From positions 296 through 22,820 of the IMG/VR virus record IMGVR_UViG_3300003203_000004: a stretch of 22,525 nt of DNA; one strand, given 5' to 3'. The notes under the pieces are model-generated. The model ran no database searches, was not told where the DNA came from, and saw only the letters and a list, made by a program, of their open reading frames with translations. This document shows positions 3,819 to 10,230 of this stretch, piece by piece. How positions within the stretch are numbered: position 1 is the first letter of the stretch; the number at the start of each line of letters is the position of its first letter. The position numbers and the translations under genes are program-made. The DNA is from a virus.

Positions 3819-4006
3819 GCGGTCCGATCGCCGAGCTGCTCGACGCCGTCCGTCAGGCAGACGACTTCAAGCAGCAGCAGCTCGCCGTGTCGTGGCCGGA
3901 GCTAGCGGCGGCGGTCGCCGGCGTGATCGAGGGCATGACCGATCAGGACGCGCCGCGGTGCTGGTGGCCCGGCGAGGATGGCACCTCGACTATGGTCGAG
4001 GTCTGA
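3815..4006 (+). CDS. Hypothetical small protein, 63 aa
   Basis: GTG 3815 overlaps the stop of the second half of the preceding frameshifted gene, which itself supports that frame being the real one. An in-frame ATG at 3806 is the alternative. The product is mainly helical (PIAELLDAVRQADDFKQQQLAVSWPELAAAVAGVIEGM) with a CWWPGEDGTSTMVEV tail. The first 20-bp palindrome overlaps its last codons. No recognised family. Confidence 0.6.
   Translation: MSGPIAELLDAVRQADDFKQQQLAVSWPELAAAVAGVIEGMTDQDAPRCWWPGEDGTSTMVEV
3983..4002. promoter_or_regulatory. 20-bp palindromic operator, site 1
   Basis: ACCTCGACTATGGTCGAGGT is a perfect inverted repeat with 8-bp arms and a 4-bp centre. It sits at the end of the preceding small gene, 25 bp (start to start) before a second copy, upstream of the terminase genes. 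Such a symmetric 20-bp element suggests a dimeric DNA-binding regulator. Confidence 0.65.
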
Positions 4007-4007
4007 A

Positions 4008-4027
4008 ACCTCCAGCATGGTCGAGGT
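4008..4027. promoter_or_regulatory. 20-bp palindromic operator, site 2
   Basis: ACCTCCAGCATGGTCGAGGT shares 17 of 20 positions with site 1 and keeps the full right arm. It ends seven bases before a likely -10 element for the small terminase gene, so a bound protein would contact or block RNA polymerase. Confidence 0.65.
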
Positions 4028-4033
4028 GCGTGC

Positions 4034-4046
4034 GATACTCGCGCTG
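4034..4046 (+). promoter_or_regulatory. Probable promoter -10 with leaderless start for terS
   Basis: TGCGATACT (4031-4039) is an extended -10 of the TGN-form with hexamer GATACT at 4034-4039. The terS GTG begins seven bases after it, the spacing at which transcription would start on or next to the start codon; no ribosome site precedes that GTG. This matches the leaderless arrangement common in actinobacteria. The -35 region is weak and lies within operator site 2. Confidence 0.5.
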
Positions 4047-4414
4047 TGGCAAGTGCTTCGCCCCGTCGGCCGCTCTCGGTGCTCAACGCGCTAACGCGGG
4101 CACTGAAGCACGTCCAGACCGGACCGGAGCACGCCCCGACCGTCGCACTGGCCAAGCGATACGCCGCGGCGCTCGACGAAGACCCTGACCGGCTGGCCCG
4201 TCTCGGCCGCCCGTTCCTCGCCGTGCTCGTCGAGCTGCGCATGACGCCGAAGGCTCGCGCCGGCGTGCTGATCGGCGACCCGCTCGACGACGACCCCGGC
4301 GCGCCGCTCCCGCAGGAAGGGGGTGGCAACGGTGACGGCAACGGCCGAGACGAGGTCGCCCAGCAACGAGCGCGACGTGATCGTCGGCAGCACCACACCG
4401 CGGCTATGGACTAA
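4046..4414 (+). CDS. terS: Terminase small subunit, 122 aa
   Basis: The small subunit binds phage DNA at the packaging site and hands it to the large subunit. The visible pattern, a helical 'LNALTRALKHV', then 'VALAKRYAAALDEDPD', then 'LGRPFLAVLVELRMTPKARAGV', matches the actinophage-type TerS family, and the gene directly precedes terL as expected. The start is GTG, with no ribosome site but a -10 element just upstream, suggesting a leaderless message. The last 30 residues are Gly/Asp then Arg/His-rich and overlap the terL start by about 80 bases, a larger overlap than elsewhere in the window. Confidence 0.75.
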   Translation: MASASPRRPLSVLNALTRALKHVQTGPEHAPTVALAKRYAAALDEDPDRLARLGRPFLAVLVELRMTPKARAGVLIGDPLDDDPGAPLPQEGGGNGDGNGRDEVAQQRARRDRRQHHTAAMD

Positions 4415-6008
4415 GCCGCTCGTCACCGGGCCGCCTGGCCCGTGCGGGTGCGGGTGCGCGCTCACCGAGGAAACCAGCTACGGGTTCGACGTCGTGCGGT
4501 TCGCGGCCCGGACGCTGCGGACCCCGCTCGACCCGTGGCAGCGGTGGGTGGCCATCCACGGCGGCGAGCTGTTGCCGGACGGCCGGCCGCGGTTCCGGCG
4601 GCTGCTGATCCTCGTGGCCCGGCAGAACGGGAAGACGCACCTGCTGGTCGTGCTCACCCTGTGGTGGATGTTCGTCGAGTGCGTGGCCATGGTCCTCGGC
4701 ACCAGCACGAAGCTTGAATACGCCGCCGAGTCGTGGCGCAAGGCTTGCAAGCTCGCGCGCCGCTCTCCGGACCTGGCCAAGGAGATCAGCCACCGCCGTG
4801 CGATCCGCAGGGCCAACGGCGAACAGGAGCTGTGGCGGGCCGACGAGGACGAGCTGGCGCTCGAAGAGGGGTCGCGGTACAAGATCGCGGCCAGCAATGA
4901 GGAGGGTGGGCGGTCGCTGACCGTCGACCGCCTGGTGCTCGACGAGCTGCGCCACCACTACGACTACAGCGCCTACGACGCGTCGGTGCCTACGACGAAC
5001 GCCGTGCCGCACGCGCAGGTGTGGGCCATCTCGAACGCCGGGTCCGCGCGGTCGGTGGTGCTCAACTCGCTGCGGGCCGACGCGCTCGCGTTCATCACCA
5101 CCGGTGAGGGCGACGAGCGGCTCGGCCTGTTCGAGTACTCGGCGCCGGACGGCTCATCGCCGACGGACCCGCGCGCGCTGGCCATGGCCAACCCGAACCT
5201 GAACCACCCGTCGGGGCGCAACCCGCTCGACGCGCTGATTGGCGAGGCCATCACCGCGATGCGCGAGGGCGGCACGAAGCTGCAGGGCTTCAAGACCGAG
5301 GCCATGTGCATGTCGGTGAAGACGATGGACCCGGCTGTCACTCCCGAGTCGTGGAAGCGGTGCGAGGACGTCGGCGACCTGGAGGCGCTGCGGGATCGGG
5401 TCGTGCTGTTCGTGGACATCTCGCTGGACGGGCAGCATGCGTCGCTCGTCGCTGGCGCGGTGATCCCGGCCGAGCTGGACGAGCGTGGGGTGGTGCCGCC
5501 GGCGCCGGCCGAGTTGGGCGAGGACGAGGAGCCGCTGCTGCTGCCGGCCGAGCGGGTCCGGATCGACGTCGTGAAGGCGTGGTCCGGTCCGGACTGCACT
5601 ATCCAGCTCCGGCGCGAGCTGCGGAGCGAGGTTGTGAGGGTGCGGCCGCGGGCGCTGGGCTGGTTCCCGAACGGGCCGGCTGCCGAGATCGCGACCGAGC
5701 TGGCCGCCGACGAGGAAGCCGCGTGGCCGCCGGCGGGGGTCGAGATCGTCGAGGTCCGCAAGGATCTGGCCGCGGTGTGCATGGGGTTCGCCGGTCAGGC
5801 CAAGGCGGGCCAGATCGCGCAGCCCAACGACCCGATGATCAATGCTCACGTGCTCGGTGCTGAGAAGTCGTACCGGGGTTCGACGTGGGTGTTCGTCCGT
5901 AAGGGCGCCGGGCACTGCGATGGCGCGTACGCGGCCGCCGGCGTCGTTCACCTGGCGCGCACGTTGCCGCCGCCACCGAAGCCGTTGCCCCGTTCGAAGG
6001 TCATCTAG
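4332..6008 (+). CDS. terL: Terminase large subunit, 558 aa
   Basis: TerL is the ATP-driven motor and nuclease that packages DNA into the prohead. Residue VARQNGKT (about 95-102) is the HK97-group Walker A, RLVLDE (200-205) the Walker B with catalytic Glu, and GTSTKLEYA the downstream coupling segment. The C-terminal RNase-H-like nuclease begins with VVLFVDISLDGQHASLVAG and ends with an acidic HCDGAYAAAGVVHLA helix. The N-terminal CGCGCALTEETSYGFDVVRFA block is typical of this family in actinophages. GTG 4332 has AGGAAGGGG about nine bases upstream; GTG 4323 in the same frame would place it too close. Length is normal for the family. Confidence 0.93.
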   Translation: MTATAETRSPSNERDVIVGSTTPRLWTKPLVTGPPGPCGCGCALTEETSYGFDVVRFAARTLRTPLDPWQRWVAIHGGELLPDGRPRFRRLLILVARQNGKTHLLVVLTLWWMFVECVAMVLGTSTKLEYAAESWRKACKLARRSPDLAKEISHRRAIRRANGEQELWRADEDELALEEGSRYKIAASNEEGGRSLTVDRLVLDELRHHYDYSAYDASVPTTNAVPHAQVWAISNAGSARSVVLNSLRADALAFITTGEGDERLGLFEYSAPDGSSPTDPRALAMANPNLNHPSGRNPLDALIGEAITAMREGGTKLQGFKTEAMCMSVKTMDPAVTPESWKRCEDVGDLEALRDRVVLFVDISLDGQHASLVAGAVIPAELDERGVVPPAPAELGEDEEPLLLPAERVRIDVVKAWSGPDCTIQLRRELRSEVVRVRPRALGWFPNGPAAEIATELAADEEAAWPPAGVEIVEVRKDLAAVCMGFAGQAKAGQIAQPNDPMINAHVLGAEKSYRGSTWVFVRKGAGHCDGAYAAAGVVHLARTLPPPPKPLPRSKVI

Positions 6009-6017
6009 GAGGAGATC

Positions 6018-6245
6018 GTGAGGAACATCGAGCACCGTCACCCCGGCACGCAGGCGATCGCCCGCTACTTCGCGTACGACCACCTGCCGGCCGGCCCGCT
6101 GCGGTCGACGAGCGCGCGTTGCGAGGAGCTGGCCGACGCGATGATCACCGCGCTGCCCGACGGCCCGGAGCTGACCGCCGGGCTGCGCAAGCTCCTCGAG
6201 GCGAAGGACTGCTTCGTGCGCGCGGCCCTGGAGGTGTCCAAGTGA
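6018..6245 (+). CDS. Small helical protein, possible Acb2/Tad1-hairpin (anti-CBASS) family, 75 aa
   Basis: GTG 6018 follows TAGGAGGAG with good spacing. The product reads HRHPGTQAIARYF, then CEELADAMITALPDGPE, then LRKLLEAKDCFVRAAL. The pattern 'C..LA..I...LPDGPE.T.AL.KLLEAKD..VRA' is widespread in phages and, from memory, belongs to the family that includes the helical Acb2 cyclic-nucleotide sponges (C..LA..I...PDS.E...AL..LE). Those proteins block CBASS defence by sequestering the signal nucleotide. Position between terL and portal would give late expression, odd for an anti-defence gene but also seen for small cargo genes. The annotation rests on motif similarity only. Confidence 0.5.
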   Translation: MRNIEHRHPGTQAIARYFAYDHLPAGPLRSTSARCEELADAMITALPDGPELTAGLRKLLEAKDCFVRAALEVSK

Positions 6246-6415
6246 TCGGGAAGCTGCTGAAGCGGATCCCCGCCAAGGCTCGCGCCACCGCCGGGCAGCT
6301 GCTCGGCGCGGCCGCAATCGTCGTCGGTGTCGGGTTGCTCGCCGGCGGCGCCTGGGCCGTGATCGCCGCCGGCGCCGCGGCGATGGTGTTCGGCGTCGCG
6401 GCCGAGGTGGACTGA
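6242..6415 (+). CDS. Small membrane protein, 57 aa
   Basis: GTG 6242 overlaps the previous stop (GTGA). After a basic start (IGKLLKRIPAKARATAG) comes one long hydrophobic Gly/Ala-rich span, about residues 19-52 (LLGAAAIVVGVGLLAGGAWAVIAAGAAAMVFGVA), probably two close membrane helices forming a hairpin. Similar small membrane proteins occur just before the portal gene in actinophages. Function is unknown. Confidence 0.65.
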   Translation: MIGKLLKRIPAKARATAGQLLGAAAIVVGVGLLAGGAWAVIAAGAAAMVFGVAAEVD

Positions 6416-6416
6416 A

Positions 6417-7664
6417 GTGGGCCTCGGCGCGCTGGTGCGCTCAACACCGCCGGCCGCGGCGCCGGCGCACACGCGCGCCATCACCGAGTTCGCGATCATC
6501 GACGGCGTCGCGGTCGACGGGTCCGGCGAGATCGGTGCCCGCTACCGCGGCGGCATGTCGATCCCCGGCGCCTGGCGTGCGTCGATCCTGATCTCCGATC
6601 TCCTCGGATCGGTGCCGTGGGATGCGTACCGGCAGCTCGGCGACCGGCCAATCGAGAAGATCATGCCGACGCCGCCGTTGCTCGAGCAGCCATCGCCGCC
6701 GGATACCCGGATGACCACGATCAGCTCCCTGGCGCTGGATCTGCTGTGGAACGGGAACGCGGTCGAGATCATCGCCGCCCGGTCGCCGTCCGGCTGGCCA
6801 ACCGCAACCCTGCCCGTGCCGGCCGAGCTGTGCGGCGTCCGCCGGGTCACCAAGGCCGCGTACTCGCCGCTGCCGGTCGGAACGGTCGAGTACAGCATCG
6901 GCGGCCTCAGCTTTGCGCCGTGGGAGGTCATCCACACCAAGGGCCCGTGCGCCCCGGGTGCGCTCAAGGGCATGGGTGTGCTTGAGCATCACATGACCGG
7001 CGGCGCGCTTGGCCTGGCGCGTGAGCAGATGCGGCAGGCGTCGAACCTCGCGAACCACGGCGTGCCGACCGGCTACCTGCAGGCCGAGAACCCGGACACC
7101 ACCGACGACGAGCTGAAGGACATGAAGGCCGCGTGGCTGCGCAACCAGCGCGACCGCACCATCGCGGCCCTGAACGCGACCACGAAGTTCGTGCCGCTGT
7201 CCTGGAATCCCGAGCAGATGCAGCTCGTCGAGGCCCGCCGCTACACGCTCACCGACCTGGAGCTGATCTTCGGACTGCCGGTCGGATGGCTCGGCGGCAT
7301 GAACAGCGCCCGGCAGTACAGCAACATCGAGCAGGACGCGGTGAACCTGCTGAAGTTCACGCTCGGCGGGCACCTGGCCCGGTTCGAGCAGACCCGCTCG
7401 AACGCGTTCCCACGCGGCACCACCGTCAGCGCCAACCTCGACGCGATCCTCCGCGCCGACACGCTGACCCGCTACCAGGCCTACGCGATCGCGTTGGCGC
7501 AGAAGTTCAAGACGGTCAACGAGGTCCGCGGCCTGGAGAAGGACCCGCCAGTGCCGTGGGGCGACGAACCGTCCGGCCCGGCTGCACCGTCCGGGACGAC
7601 TGCAGAAGCCACCAGCAACGAGACCGGCGATGGACAGGAAGGTGAGCAGGATGACCAGGCGTAG
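6417..7664 (+). CDS. Portal protein, HK97 family, 415 aa
   Basis: The portal forms the dodecameric ring at one capsid vertex through which TerL pumps DNA and to which connectors attach. Family features are the NGNAVEIIAARSPSGWP strand-turn, the APWEVIHTKG segment, GVLEHHMTGGALGLAREQMRQASNLANHG stem helix, and the LTDLELIFGLPVGWLGG...QYSNIEQDAVNLLKFTLGGHLARFEQ clip/crown region. The GTG start lies one base after the preceding TGA. Length fits the family. The C-terminal 30 residues are an acidic, disordered tail. Confidence 0.9.
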   Translation: MGLGALVRSTPPAAAPAHTRAITEFAIIDGVAVDGSGEIGARYRGGMSIPGAWRASILISDLLGSVPWDAYRQLGDRPIEKIMPTPPLLEQPSPPDTRMTTISSLALDLLWNGNAVEIIAARSPSGWPTATLPVPAELCGVRRVTKAAYSPLPVGTVEYSIGGLSFAPWEVIHTKGPCAPGALKGMGVLEHHMTGGALGLAREQMRQASNLANHGVPTGYLQAENPDTTDDELKDMKAAWLRNQRDRTIAALNATTKFVPLSWNPEQMQLVEARRYTLTDLELIFGLPVGWLGGMNSARQYSNIEQDAVNLLKFTLGGHLARFEQTRSNAFPRGTTVSANLDAILRADTLTRYQAYAIALAQKFKTVNEVRGLEKDPPVPWGDEPSGPAAPSGTTAEATSNETGDGQEGEQDDQA

Positions 7665-8118
7665 CCCGGAGCAGGTGCACGACGAGGACGGCCACGCCGA
7701 GTTCGTGGCGTCGTGCAAGCGATGCCAGACCGAGGCCGAGGCGGACCAGAACGCCGAGGAGGCCCGCGCCGAGCTGGCCGCCGACGGTGACATCCCGGAC
7801 GAGGCCGACACCGTCGTCGGCGACCAGGACGCCGACGAGGTCACGGCAGCCGAGGACCGCACGGTCCTGGGCACGGTCGAGACCTTCGACGGTGAGCAGG
7901 TCACCGAAGGTCCGCTGCCGGACGCTGACCCAGCCGGCTACCCAGACGACGCCGAGGAACTTCCCGTTCAGCGCGTCCGCCGAGCGCTCACAACGGACGG
8001 CCGGCCGAAGTGCTACATCGAGGACTGCCCGCTCCCCGAGTTCATGGAAGACGCGGGTCTGTGCGGCGGCCACTGGTCGAACCGGCCCGACCTGAGGAAG
8101 GCGGCCCGCAATGGCTGA
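7651..8118 (+). CDS. Acidic zinc-motif protein of the head operon, 155 aa
   Basis: ATG 7651 with AGGAAGGTGAG upstream is preferred to an in-frame ATG at 7630. The protein has an N-terminal CKRC, a long acidic, Asp/Glu-rich and probably disordered middle, and a C-terminal cluster CYIEDCPLPEFMEDAGLCGGHW that could bind zinc (Cys, Cys, Cys, His). It lies between portal and protease, where scaffolding or minor head proteins are encoded, and overlaps both. I recognise no named family. Confidence 0.65.
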   Translation: MTRRSPEQVHDEDGHAEFVASCKRCQTEAEADQNAEEARAELAADGDIPDEADTVVGDQDADEVTAAEDRTVLGTVETFDGEQVTEGPLPDADPAGYPDDAEELPVQRVRRALTTDGRPKCYIEDCPLPEFMEDAGLCGGHWSNRPDLRKAARNG

Positions 8119-8737
8119 CCACTACCGCACGTTCACTCCGGACCTGGAGGTCCGGTCTAAGGGAGACGGTCGAACGATCGTCGGTATCGCCGTCCCATGG
8201 GGAAAGCCGACCTACATCGGCCCCGGCCTGACCGAGCAGTTCCGATCCGGTGCGTTCAACGAGCAGCTGGGCCCCGTCCTTCCCGGTGGCGTGCTGCGCT
8301 CGGCCAACCGGGTGTTCGTCGCCCGGGAACACATGGTGCTCGGCGGTGAGCTGATCGGCCGAGCCTCACTGCTCCGCAACGACGCCGCGGGTCTCTACGC
8401 CGAACTGCGTGTGTCCCGCACCGAGCGCGGTGACGAGACCCTGGAGCTGGTGAAGGACGGCGCGCTCACCGACCTCAGCATCATGTTCCGGGAGAAGACG
8501 AACTCGCGGCTGCCCGGCGGCATCACCGAGCGGGTCACCGCCGACCTCGTTGAAGTCGCCGTTGTCCTGCAGGGCGCGTACGGCGACCAGGCGCTCGTGG
8601 CCGCGGTCCGGGCTGCCGGCGCCCCATACGCCGGCGTTCAGCCGCCGGCCGGAACCCCCCGGCTCGACGAGGCCCGCCGGCTGCTGGCAGACCTCCCGAA
8701 GTTCGGCGGCAACGCGAATCGCAATACCTCTACCTAA
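8111..8737 (+). CDS. Prohead protease, HK97 family (S78), 208 aa
   Basis: This serine protease cleaves the capsid's delta domain and itself during prohead maturation. The family hallmarks are visible: GIAVPWGKPTYIG (residues 25-37), the catalytic His in AREHM (His74), the LTDLSIMF strand with the nucleophile Ser123, and the ADLVEVAVVLQGAYG strand (Glu148 region). The ATG overlaps the previous gene by eight bases. The third 20-bp palindrome runs across its stop codon. Size is normal. Confidence 0.88.
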   Translation: MADHYRTFTPDLEVRSKGDGRTIVGIAVPWGKPTYIGPGLTEQFRSGAFNEQLGPVLPGGVLRSANRVFVAREHMVLGGELIGRASLLRNDAAGLYAELRVSRTERGDETLELVKDGALTDLSIMFREKTNSRLPGGITERVTADLVEVAVVLQGAYGDQALVAAVRAAGAPYAGVQPPAGTPRLDEARRLLADLPKFGGNANRNTST

Positions 8738-8745
8738 GTCGAGGT
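8726..8745. promoter_or_regulatory. 20-bp palindromic operator, site 3
   Basis: ACCTCTACCTAAGTCGAGGT has the same length and outer arms (ACCTC ... GTCGAGGT) as sites 1 and 2 about 4.7 kb away, with a divergent centre. It overlaps the protease stop codon (TAA 8735-8737) and abuts a TATAGT hexamer, so it probably controls a promoter reading into the capsid gene. Confidence 0.55.
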
Positions 8746-8750
8746 ATAGT
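8745..8750 (+). promoter_or_regulatory. Putative -10 element for the capsid transcript
   Basis: TATAGT is one base from TATAAT and conspicuous in GC-rich DNA. It directly overlaps the last base of the palindrome at site 3. No good -35 hexamer is seen 16-19 bp upstream, so activity may need an activator or reflect an extended form. Confidence 0.4.
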
Positions 8751-8779
8751 CCGCGAGTAGAGGACACCGGCCACCCCGC

Positions 8780-8830
8780 ATGACCGTCGGCACGGCACCC
8801 CCGCCCCGCGAGGGGCGGGCCATCCCGTAG
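8780..8830 (+). CDS. Possible 16-residue leader peptide before the capsid gene
   Basis: ATG 8780 to TAG 8828-8830 encodes MTVGTAPPPREGRAIP. It lies in the 158-bp leader between the protease and capsid genes, and its middle is formed by a perfect hairpin. A ribosome translating it would melt that hairpin. No clear ribosome site is visible, so translation is speculative. Confidence 0.3.
   Translation: MTVGTAPPPREGRAIP
8800..8819 (+). promoter_or_regulatory. Perfect 8-bp GC hairpin in the capsid leader
   Basis: CCCGCCCC (8800-8807), loop GCGA, GGGGCGGG (8812-8819). No T tract follows. It could be a weak terminator that trims read-through from upstream genes, an mRNA-stabilising 5' structure for the highly expressed capsid message, or an attenuator linked to the leader ORF. 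Confidence 0.6.
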
Positions 8831-8895
8831 CCACTGCAAGGTCACGGCCACCCCGGTCAGTCGATCCCGAATCCACTGACCACAAGGGGCCCGTG

Positions 8896-10230
8896 ATGCA
8901 CCCGTACCTTGAGGCACTGCAGGGCAAGTACGACACGCTGGCCGCGTCCGTCGAGGCGCTGCAGACCCGCGCTGTCGACGAGAACCGCGACCTCACCGAC
9001 GTCGAGCTCCGCTCCATCACGGAGCAGGGCGAGCAGATGAAGACGCTGGCCATCCAGATCGAGGGCCTGGCCGACATCGAGACCCGCAGCGCGGCGGTCG
9101 CCGACGCCGCCGCGAAGATCACCGCCGCGACCACTCGCGATGGCGGCGCCGGCGGTAGCGACGACGGCCAGGCCACCGGCGGTGACCAGACCCGGTCGAC
9201 CCGACTGGGCACGACCACCAAGGACCGCGACCCCGGCCACTACACCCGGTCCTCACAGCACTCGTTCTTCGGTGACCTGTACCGGTCGCGCGTGTTCGGC
9301 GACGAGCTGGCCGGCCGCCGGCTCGTCGAGCACACCCGCGCCCTGGACACCGGCACCGAGGGCGTCGGCACGGTCGCCCCACACTGGATGACCGAGGAGT
9401 TCGAGACCCTGGCCCGGCAGGGCCGGTCGCTGGCCAACGCGGTGCGGAACATCCCGCTCGGCGACGACCCGCGCCCGATGACCCTGCCGAAGCAGACCGC
9501 CGGCACCGACGCCGTGGTGGCCGAGCAGGCCGCCGAGAACGACCCAGTCGGCGGCGCGGACGCGTGGGACTCCGACGTCGACGTGGTCGCGCCGAAGCCG
9601 ACCGCCGGCAAGCAGATCGTGTCGCGGCAGATGATCGACATGTCGTCGCCGGCGATCGACCAGCTGATCTACGGCGACCTGATGTCGGTGTACAACCTGA
9701 AGGTCGAGAAGAAGGTCGGTGCCGCGGTGGTCGCGGCCGCCGGCGCCGCGATCACGACGTTCGCGAACGAGGCCGCGTTCGCCACGGACGCCGACGCGAT
9801 CGACGCGGTGATCGACACGAGCACCGCGGTCCGCAACGCACGCAAGCTCGGCGCGAACGTCGTCGCGATGACCGTGAACCGGTGGGGCAAGTTCAAGAAG
9901 CTGAAGGACGCCCAGAACCGGCCGCTCATCCCGGTCAGCACCTACGGCCCCCAGAACGTCAACGGCATCGGCTCGGTGAACGTCGACGGCGTGATCGAGG
10001 ACCTGGCGGCGGTCGCCACCGACGGCATCGGAGACGGTGCGACCTACCCGGAGTCCGTGGTGGTGCTGCGGTCGACGGACACGCTGCTGTTCGAGTCGAA
10101 CCTGCTGCGGTTCCGGTTCGAGGAGCAGGCCGGTCCGGAGTCCATCGTGCTGGGCATCTGGGGCTACACGGCGGTGATCGTGCGGCAGGCCGGCAAGTCG
10201 GTCAAGCGCTTCGTCGTCACCGCGGCCTGA
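8896..10230 (+). CDS. Major capsid protein, HK97 fold, 444 aa
   Basis: This is the shell subunit. Residues about 1-80 form a charged coiled coil (YLEALQGKYDTLAASVEALQ onward), the delta/scaffolding domain removed by the protease; a Gly/Asp/Thr-rich stretch (81-112) is the probable cleavage zone. The HK97 core follows: FETLARQGRSLANAVRNIPL, the E-loop region rich in Asp, SRQMIDMSSPAIDQLIYGDL spine helix, and a VIVRQAGKSVKRFVVTAA end. ATG 8896 has AAGGGG six bases upstream and is preferred to GTG 8893. Its own leader and promoter-like elements suggest strong separate expression. Confidence 0.93.
   Translation: MHPYLEALQGKYDTLAASVEALQTRAVDENRDLTDVELRSITEQGEQMKTLAIQIEGLADIETRSAAVADAAAKITAATTRDGGAGGSDDGQATGGDQTRSTRLGTTTKDRDPGHYTRSSQHSFFGDLYRSRVFGDELAGRRLVEHTRALDTGTEGVGTVAPHWMTEEFETLARQGRSLANAVRNIPLGDDPRPMTLPKQTAGTDAVVAEQAAENDPVGGADAWDSDVDVVAPKPTAGKQIVSRQMIDMSSPAIDQLIYGDLMSVYNLKVEKKVGAAVVAAAGAAITTFANEAAFATDADAIDAVIDTSTAVRNARKLGANVVAMTVNRWGKFKKLKDAQNRPLIPVSTYGPQNVNGIGSVNVDGVIEDLAAVATDGIGDGATYPESVVVLRSTDTLLFESNLLRFRFEEQAGPESIVLGIWGYTAVIVRQAGKSVKRFVVTAA

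Follow-up and report, generated by a model that had tools for sequence, protein, structure and literature searches.

Candidate SoxR-type operators at the packaging and capsid promoters of actinophages

Introduction

What decides when a phage of soil actinomycetes begins to package its DNA and build its capsid? The switching-on of late genes is poorly known for most actinophages, and three short palindromes in one such phage raise the question of which regulator might act there. The DNA analysed (the window) comprises 22,525 nucleotides (nt), positions 296-22,820 of the soil phage record IMGVR_UViG_3300003203_000004 (22,820 bases), an IMG/VR fragment covering 22.8 kb of an actinophage late region. 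An earlier note on this sequence had described three 20-base-pair (bp) palindromes and proposed that one regulator coordinates two late promoters through them. All three palindromes are present in the sequence where the note had placed them. S1 (ACCTCGACTATGGTCGAGGT) and S2 (ACCTCCAGCATGGTCGAGGT) form a tandem pair with a 25-bp period directly 5′ of terS, the gene of the small terminase subunit. S3 (ACCTCTACCTAAGTCGAGGT) overlaps the stop codon of the protease gene and adjoins a −10-like TATAGT that precedes the capsid leader (Table 1). Judged by their sequence, these sites belong to a real and conserved operator module of SoxR type, found at the predicted late promoters of four phages.

Three palindromes and their chance expectation

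The 8-bp arms of S1 (ACCTCGAC/GTCGAGGT) match at 8/8 pairs, as opposed to 6/8 in S2 and 7/8 in S3. The perfect palindrome claimed for S1 therefore holds for its arms but not for the central TATG, which is not self-complementary. Beyond the copies at 3983, 4008 and 8726, no further exact ACCTC-N10-GAGGT occurs in the window or in the full 22,820-base record, as the note had maintained for two-armed copies.

Dinucleotide-preserving shuffles of the window contain this exact motif 0.025 times on average, and at least three copies were reached in 0 of 400 shuffles. A tandem pair of palindromes with the same arm, of any sequence, spaced 20-30 bp apart, is likewise rare (mean 0.01 per shuffle). Copy number by itself is unremarkable, since in roughly every second shuffle some GC-rich arm attains three copies. 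What makes the sites significant is the specific arm, its tandem placement, the common core and the conservation described below.

Recurrence at late promoters of other phages

The terS pair recurs in two further actinophages. In L064 (IMGVR_UViG_3300020061_000063), a 57-bp island just 5′ of terS aligns at 84% to window positions 3983-4039 and contains both boxes, the CTGAA/CTGAT linker and GTGCGATACT. L086 (IMGVR_UViG_2770939579_000001) is a prophage contig with an integrase and an XRE repressor. Its box pair has a 26-bp period and is followed by GTGGGATACT, closely ahead of a terS from the same family as the window gene (56% identity over 62 amino acids between the two TerS proteins). The terS genes of the window and L064 fall into different Pfam families (Terminase_6 and Terminase_7, both matches weak), and the pair is conserved as an island ahead of terminases from these two families. 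L064 and L086 are the only convincing matches to the tandem and promoter-linked patterns among 2.9 million viral contigs.

A last viral scan with a generalised motif returned ten contigs, among them L049 and L231 (IMGVR_UViG_2509276014_000002; 32 kb, with an integrase and an antirepressor). Two consensus boxes lie in L231, one at the terL/portal junction and one at the protease/capsid-gene junction. Its capsid protein has no match to the PHROG of the window capsid, and L231 is independent support for the association of the boxes with late promoters. The note had named a lack of conservation in relatives as an outcome that would speak against its proposal; the terS pair in L064 and L086 and the portal and capsid boxes in L231 show the opposite. 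Boxes were not found in ten other relatives, each retrieved in full or almost in full, and no useful near-identical DNA turned up in cultured phages.

Other matches were set aside. The sole tandem-pattern match in GTDB species genomes, in Streptomyces alanosinicus (L067), has a different core and no phage context and is attributed to chance or considered unrelated. The promoter-linked match in L141 is a chance occurrence in coding DNA of an AT-rich phage, and phylum-wide the same pattern gave one weak match in 397 genomes. GAGGT-GTGCGATACT by itself matched 44 contigs, most of them by chance. Generalised-motif matches in L027, L229 and L232 lie in coding DNA, and those in L230 and L233 in low-GC intergenic DNA. 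A SoxR-like box in L234 (7912-7931), within the end of an HNH gene and directly 5′ of terS, is ambiguous and may be a coding coincidence.

Identity of the boxes

The relationship of these sites to a known protein family emerges from 148 actinomycete genomes searched with the phage consensus. Many ACCTCAAC-N4-GTTGAGGT sites occur there, some beside genes with a SoxR signature, and a search for the SoxR family (TIGR01950) gave matches in 72 of the 148 genomes. At half of the soxR loci examined (15/30), a box of the phage form lies about 30-110 bp upstream of soxR; the one in L215 (ACCTCAACTATGGTCGAGGT) differs from S1 by one base. A matrix built from 15 boxes beside actinomycete soxR genes ranks S1, S3 and S2 as the top three sites of the window, followed by a site at 9.2, and reaches at most 11.5 in 100 shuffles. 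The top two sites in each of L064, L086 and L231 are likewise the late-promoter boxes. Because of this ranking and the single-base difference between S1 and a soxR-promoter box, the three sites are assigned to the SoxR-type (MerR-family) boxes. This agrees with the kind of ACCTC/GAGGT-binding regulator that the note had envisaged, MerR included.

The 20-bp form of actinomycete and proteobacterial SoxR boxes, ACCTC-n-AC-YWWR-GT-n-GAGGT, with AC/GT at positions 7-8 and 13-14, is that of the window sites, although S2 and the proximal L064 box depart from it at positions 7-8. The YWWR core is present in 7/7 boxes of the window, L064 and L086 (chance 0.022 each). This form is also that of a Stenotrophomonas SoxR box, ACCTCAACTGCAGTTGAGGT, verified by gel shift (PMC4411124).

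A strict phage pattern that excludes the base usual in host boxes at position 6 was scanned in 395 genomes. It yielded six sites and none for the reversed control, and all six combine TTGACC and SoxR-type spacing with SoxR-type promoter contexts. Two stand in divergent soxR promoters, where the arms equal those of S1 (L169) and the 8-bp arms those of S3 (L224). Others precede an ABC transporter gene (L225) and a quinone-oxidoreductase-like gene (L228), classes known in the SoxR regulon of S. coelicolor (PMC4146615). The frequent background occurrence that the note had considered damaging to its idea is thus not seen in these actinomycete genomes, the host of the window phage itself not being identified.

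Promoter geometry and a proposed repression mechanism

Each site appears to adjoin a promoter, with GATACT as the predicted −10 at terS and TATAGT at the capsid gene. GATACT (4034-4039) is preceded by TGC and ends 6 nt before the GTG start of terS, so that the terS transcript is possibly leaderless. The conserved TGNGATACT sits 22-23 bp past the ACC of the box in the window, L064 and L086. From ACC to the predicted −10, the distances are 23 (window terS), 22 (L064), 23 (L086) and 16 bp (window capsid), and in L231 they are 17 bp (portal) and 22 bp (capsid). All six are therefore 16-17 or 22-23 bp and none is 19-20 bp. TTGACC is found in 0 of 14 orientations of the phage sites. The hexamer TGCGAT or TGGGAT stands 19-20 bp from one side of S2 and of the proximal boxes in the L064 and L086 terS promoters, and for S3 on the reverse strand (window positions 4031-4036 and 8720-8725).

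Activation by MerR-family proteins requires 19-20 bp (PMC9909328, PMC5045206), and the host SoxR promoters have this spacing together with TTGACC. The geometry of the phage promoters is unlike that of known SoxR-activated promoters, and classical MerR/SoxR activation is rejected because of the spacing and the missing TTGACC. According to the title of Hidalgo and Demple 1997, altered spacing reportedly turns SoxR into a repressor. For the same two reasons, a protein bound at the phage sites is expected to repress rather than activate. A SoxR site outside the activator position leads to repression (PMC4411124, PMC9909328), and at the SoxR autorepression site this holds for both redox forms (PMC4411124). 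There, too, the box covers the promoter outside the activator position; the difference is that this arrangement is known from the promoter of soxR itself and not from phage genes. The phage sites further differ from SoxR boxes in general by their targets (packaging, portal and capsid genes) and by the tandem arrangement at terS.

The preferred reading, with a probability of roughly 0.45, is that the boxes are SoxR-box-type operators at which a SoxR-like dimer, most likely host SoxR, represses two late promoters. The three boxes would overlie the −35 region of both promoters, as a probably cooperative tandem pair at the packaging (terS) promoter and as a single box at the capsid promoter, where the dimer would most likely occlude the promoter. 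Late genes would in this way be kept silent in the lysogen and during the first phase of infection. They would come on once replicating phage DNA titrates the few SoxR dimers, as we propose, or once another signal relieves repression. Promoter activity, binding, repression and its lifting are all deduced here from sequence and position. Host SoxR is the leading candidate ligand because none of the four phage records encodes SoxR, the SoxR cysteine motif being present in no protein of these records.

Several points weigh against the preferred reading. The matrix is partly circular, with 13 of its boxes collected by means of a SoxR-like consensus similar to the phage motif and the other two through phage-derived patterns. 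A at position 6 and T at position 15 characterize about 90% of host boxes and both L231 boxes but are mostly absent in the window, L064 and L086, where position 6 is rarely A. The ligand may therefore be a different MerR-type protein. Some host soxR boxes (L169, L224) also carry G or T at this position. Since SoxR binds in both redox states, the relief of pure repression needs another explanation. Finally, small MerR-like excisionase-type proteins are encoded by the phages of L086 and L231, and a phage regulator could be missed in the window and L064, both of which are fragments that lack the early region.

At the capsid promoter, six relatives (L068, L072, L075, L081, L087, L088) have a CACCCC-rich leader 5′ of the capsid gene and a −10-like element at the position equivalent to the window TATAGT, but no S3-like box was found in these closest capsid relatives. 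S3 was therefore gained by, or lost from, a pre-existing promoter. The note's idea of one regulator for two late promoters is supported, a single regulator being deduced from the motif that both share, with the absence of S3 from these relatives as a limit.

Alternative explanations

The repression might instead be exerted by a regulator of the phage itself, a MerR-like or other helix-turn-helix protein of the early region with SoxR-like specificity. We consider this unlikely, yet it stays a strong rival because of the missing early regions and because three of the four phages depart from host SoxR boxes at position 6. Possible candidates in the L086 prophage are an orphan protein whose end resembles a helix-turn-helix, the XRE repressor, a WhiB protein and an HTH_17 excisionase-like protein; in the L231 phage there is a 62-residue MerR-like protein. 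The latter, excisionase-like as well, gave the only MerR_1 score in the four records. The excisionase-like type is, however, the sole one shared and is common among temperate phages generally, and the L231 boxes equal the host SoxR consensus. The small helix-turn-helix or MerR-like gene for which the note had advised a search has no counterpart in the window, where no candidate binding protein was found.

The orphan cysteine-rich protein of the L086 prophage (helix-turn-helix-like C-terminus) and its WhiB-like factor were located at L138 6933-7529 and 7924-8379. The orphan has no Pfam, PHROG or phage match, and neither protein was found in the ten operator-less relatives, save a weak partial match to the orphan in one. 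As a regulator the orphan could not be linked to the boxes, its region being present in only one operator-bearing record.

A single motif at several phage promoters, with tandem sites about 24-25 bp apart, recalls the lambda operators. Among dispersed repressor operators, the Cluster A stoperators are short, asymmetric and present in many genome copies (PMC9283540), whereas the window motif is palindromic and occurs three times in 22.8 kb, at two promoters only. The boxes also differ from phage repressor operators in being host-type palindromes restricted to late promoters. In the L086 and L231 phages, both near-complete, the repressor genes have no box in their vicinity, unlike what is expected of an autoregulated immunity repressor, and in these two phages a role as immunity operators is unsupported.

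Quite improbable is a late activator that recruits RNA polymerase to promoters devoid of a −35. No recognisable −35 is indeed present at any phage promoter, and the three terS pairs have their distal boxes centred about −52.5 to −54.5 relative to the predicted start. A single dyad motif that recurs at late promoters within one phage is also a feature of the sites of Mu C (PMC4461284) and P2 Ogr, both of them phage-encoded late activators with rather fixed promoter positions. A contact-dependent activator is usually fixed in position, whereas here the distance from box to −10 varies by half a helical turn (16-17 versus 22-23 bp) and that of the distal boxes by 2 bp. Moreover, no box is present around −55 at the capsid promoter, and in relatives the capsid −10 occurs unaccompanied by a box.

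Chance repeats, or RNA hairpins acting as a terminator or processing site with no DNA-binding protein, are very improbable: S1 and the L231 capsid box could fold as an RNA stem and GC-rich palindromes are frequent in the window, but the count far exceeds the shuffled expectation, arms and core obey a consensus common to host promoters, and an RNA stem is rejected because of uncompensated arm mismatches in S2, S3 and the L064 and L086 boxes, with no T-run downstream. The palindromes look like a DNA operator.

Late genes and neighbouring elements

The features of the window are collected in Table 1. In the window the CACCCC leader also holds a possible coding sequence for a peptide of 16 residues (MTVGTAPPPREGRAIP), with its ATG at 8781. 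The leader may act in cis as an RNA element.

Table 1. Predicted boxes, promoters and late genes of the window.
Feature	Position	Strand	Centre from predicted start	Basis or remark
S1, distal SoxR-type box of terS promoter	3983..4002		~−53.5	SoxR matrix 29.1
S2, proximal SoxR-type box of terS promoter	4008..4027		~−28.5	SoxR matrix 22.1; pair and linker kept in L064 and L086
Predicted extended −10 of terS promoter, TGCGATACT	4031..4039	+		TGNGATACT conserved in window, L064 and L086
terS, small terminase subunit	4046..4414	+		Pfam Terminase_6, weak (E 1e-4, under curated cut-off)
terL, large terminase subunit	4323..6008	+		PHROG 9, E 5e-69
Head maturation protease	8111..8737	+		PHROG 80, E 6e-17; final codons and stop codon lie within S3
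S3, single SoxR-type box at capsid promoter	8726..8745		~−21.5	SoxR matrix 26.7
Predicted −10 of capsid promoter, TATAGT	8745..8750	+		Sequence and geometry; 16 bp after S3 ACC
Predicted capsid-gene leader with CACCCC repeats	8757..8892	+		Sequence
Major capsid protein gene	8893..10230	+		PHROG 2263, E 2e-31

Two further observations concern the late regions of related phages. Portal, head protease and major capsid protein appear to be joined in one open reading frame in L064 (1277-4453, minus strand; 1058 amino acids) and L086 (6414-9569; 1051 amino acids), with PHROG matches to all three proteins along it. In several phages a conserved element like GGACATCCRCGCCCTTATGTCCTCTCTCTCCCC precedes terS (L071 4450-4800, L073 4050-4400, L082 4250-4640, L086 4440-4475, and L234 at about 7780-7830 on the minus strand) and might represent a cos site; none was seen in the window.

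Implications

The literature searched yielded nothing that connects SoxR with phage late genes. It may tentatively be suggested that different temperate actinophages have repeatedly placed SoxR boxes at non-activating positions on packaging, portal and capsid promoters, so that the redox and antibiotic sensor of the host represses virion assembly until titration through replication, or a redox change, relieves it. The motif offers a handle on the late promoters of uncultured actinophages. A host-type regulator may set the timing of virus particle construction and, if host SoxR controls the packaging and capsid promoters, the redox-active antibiotics that soil actinomycetes make would have a direct input into the production of virions.

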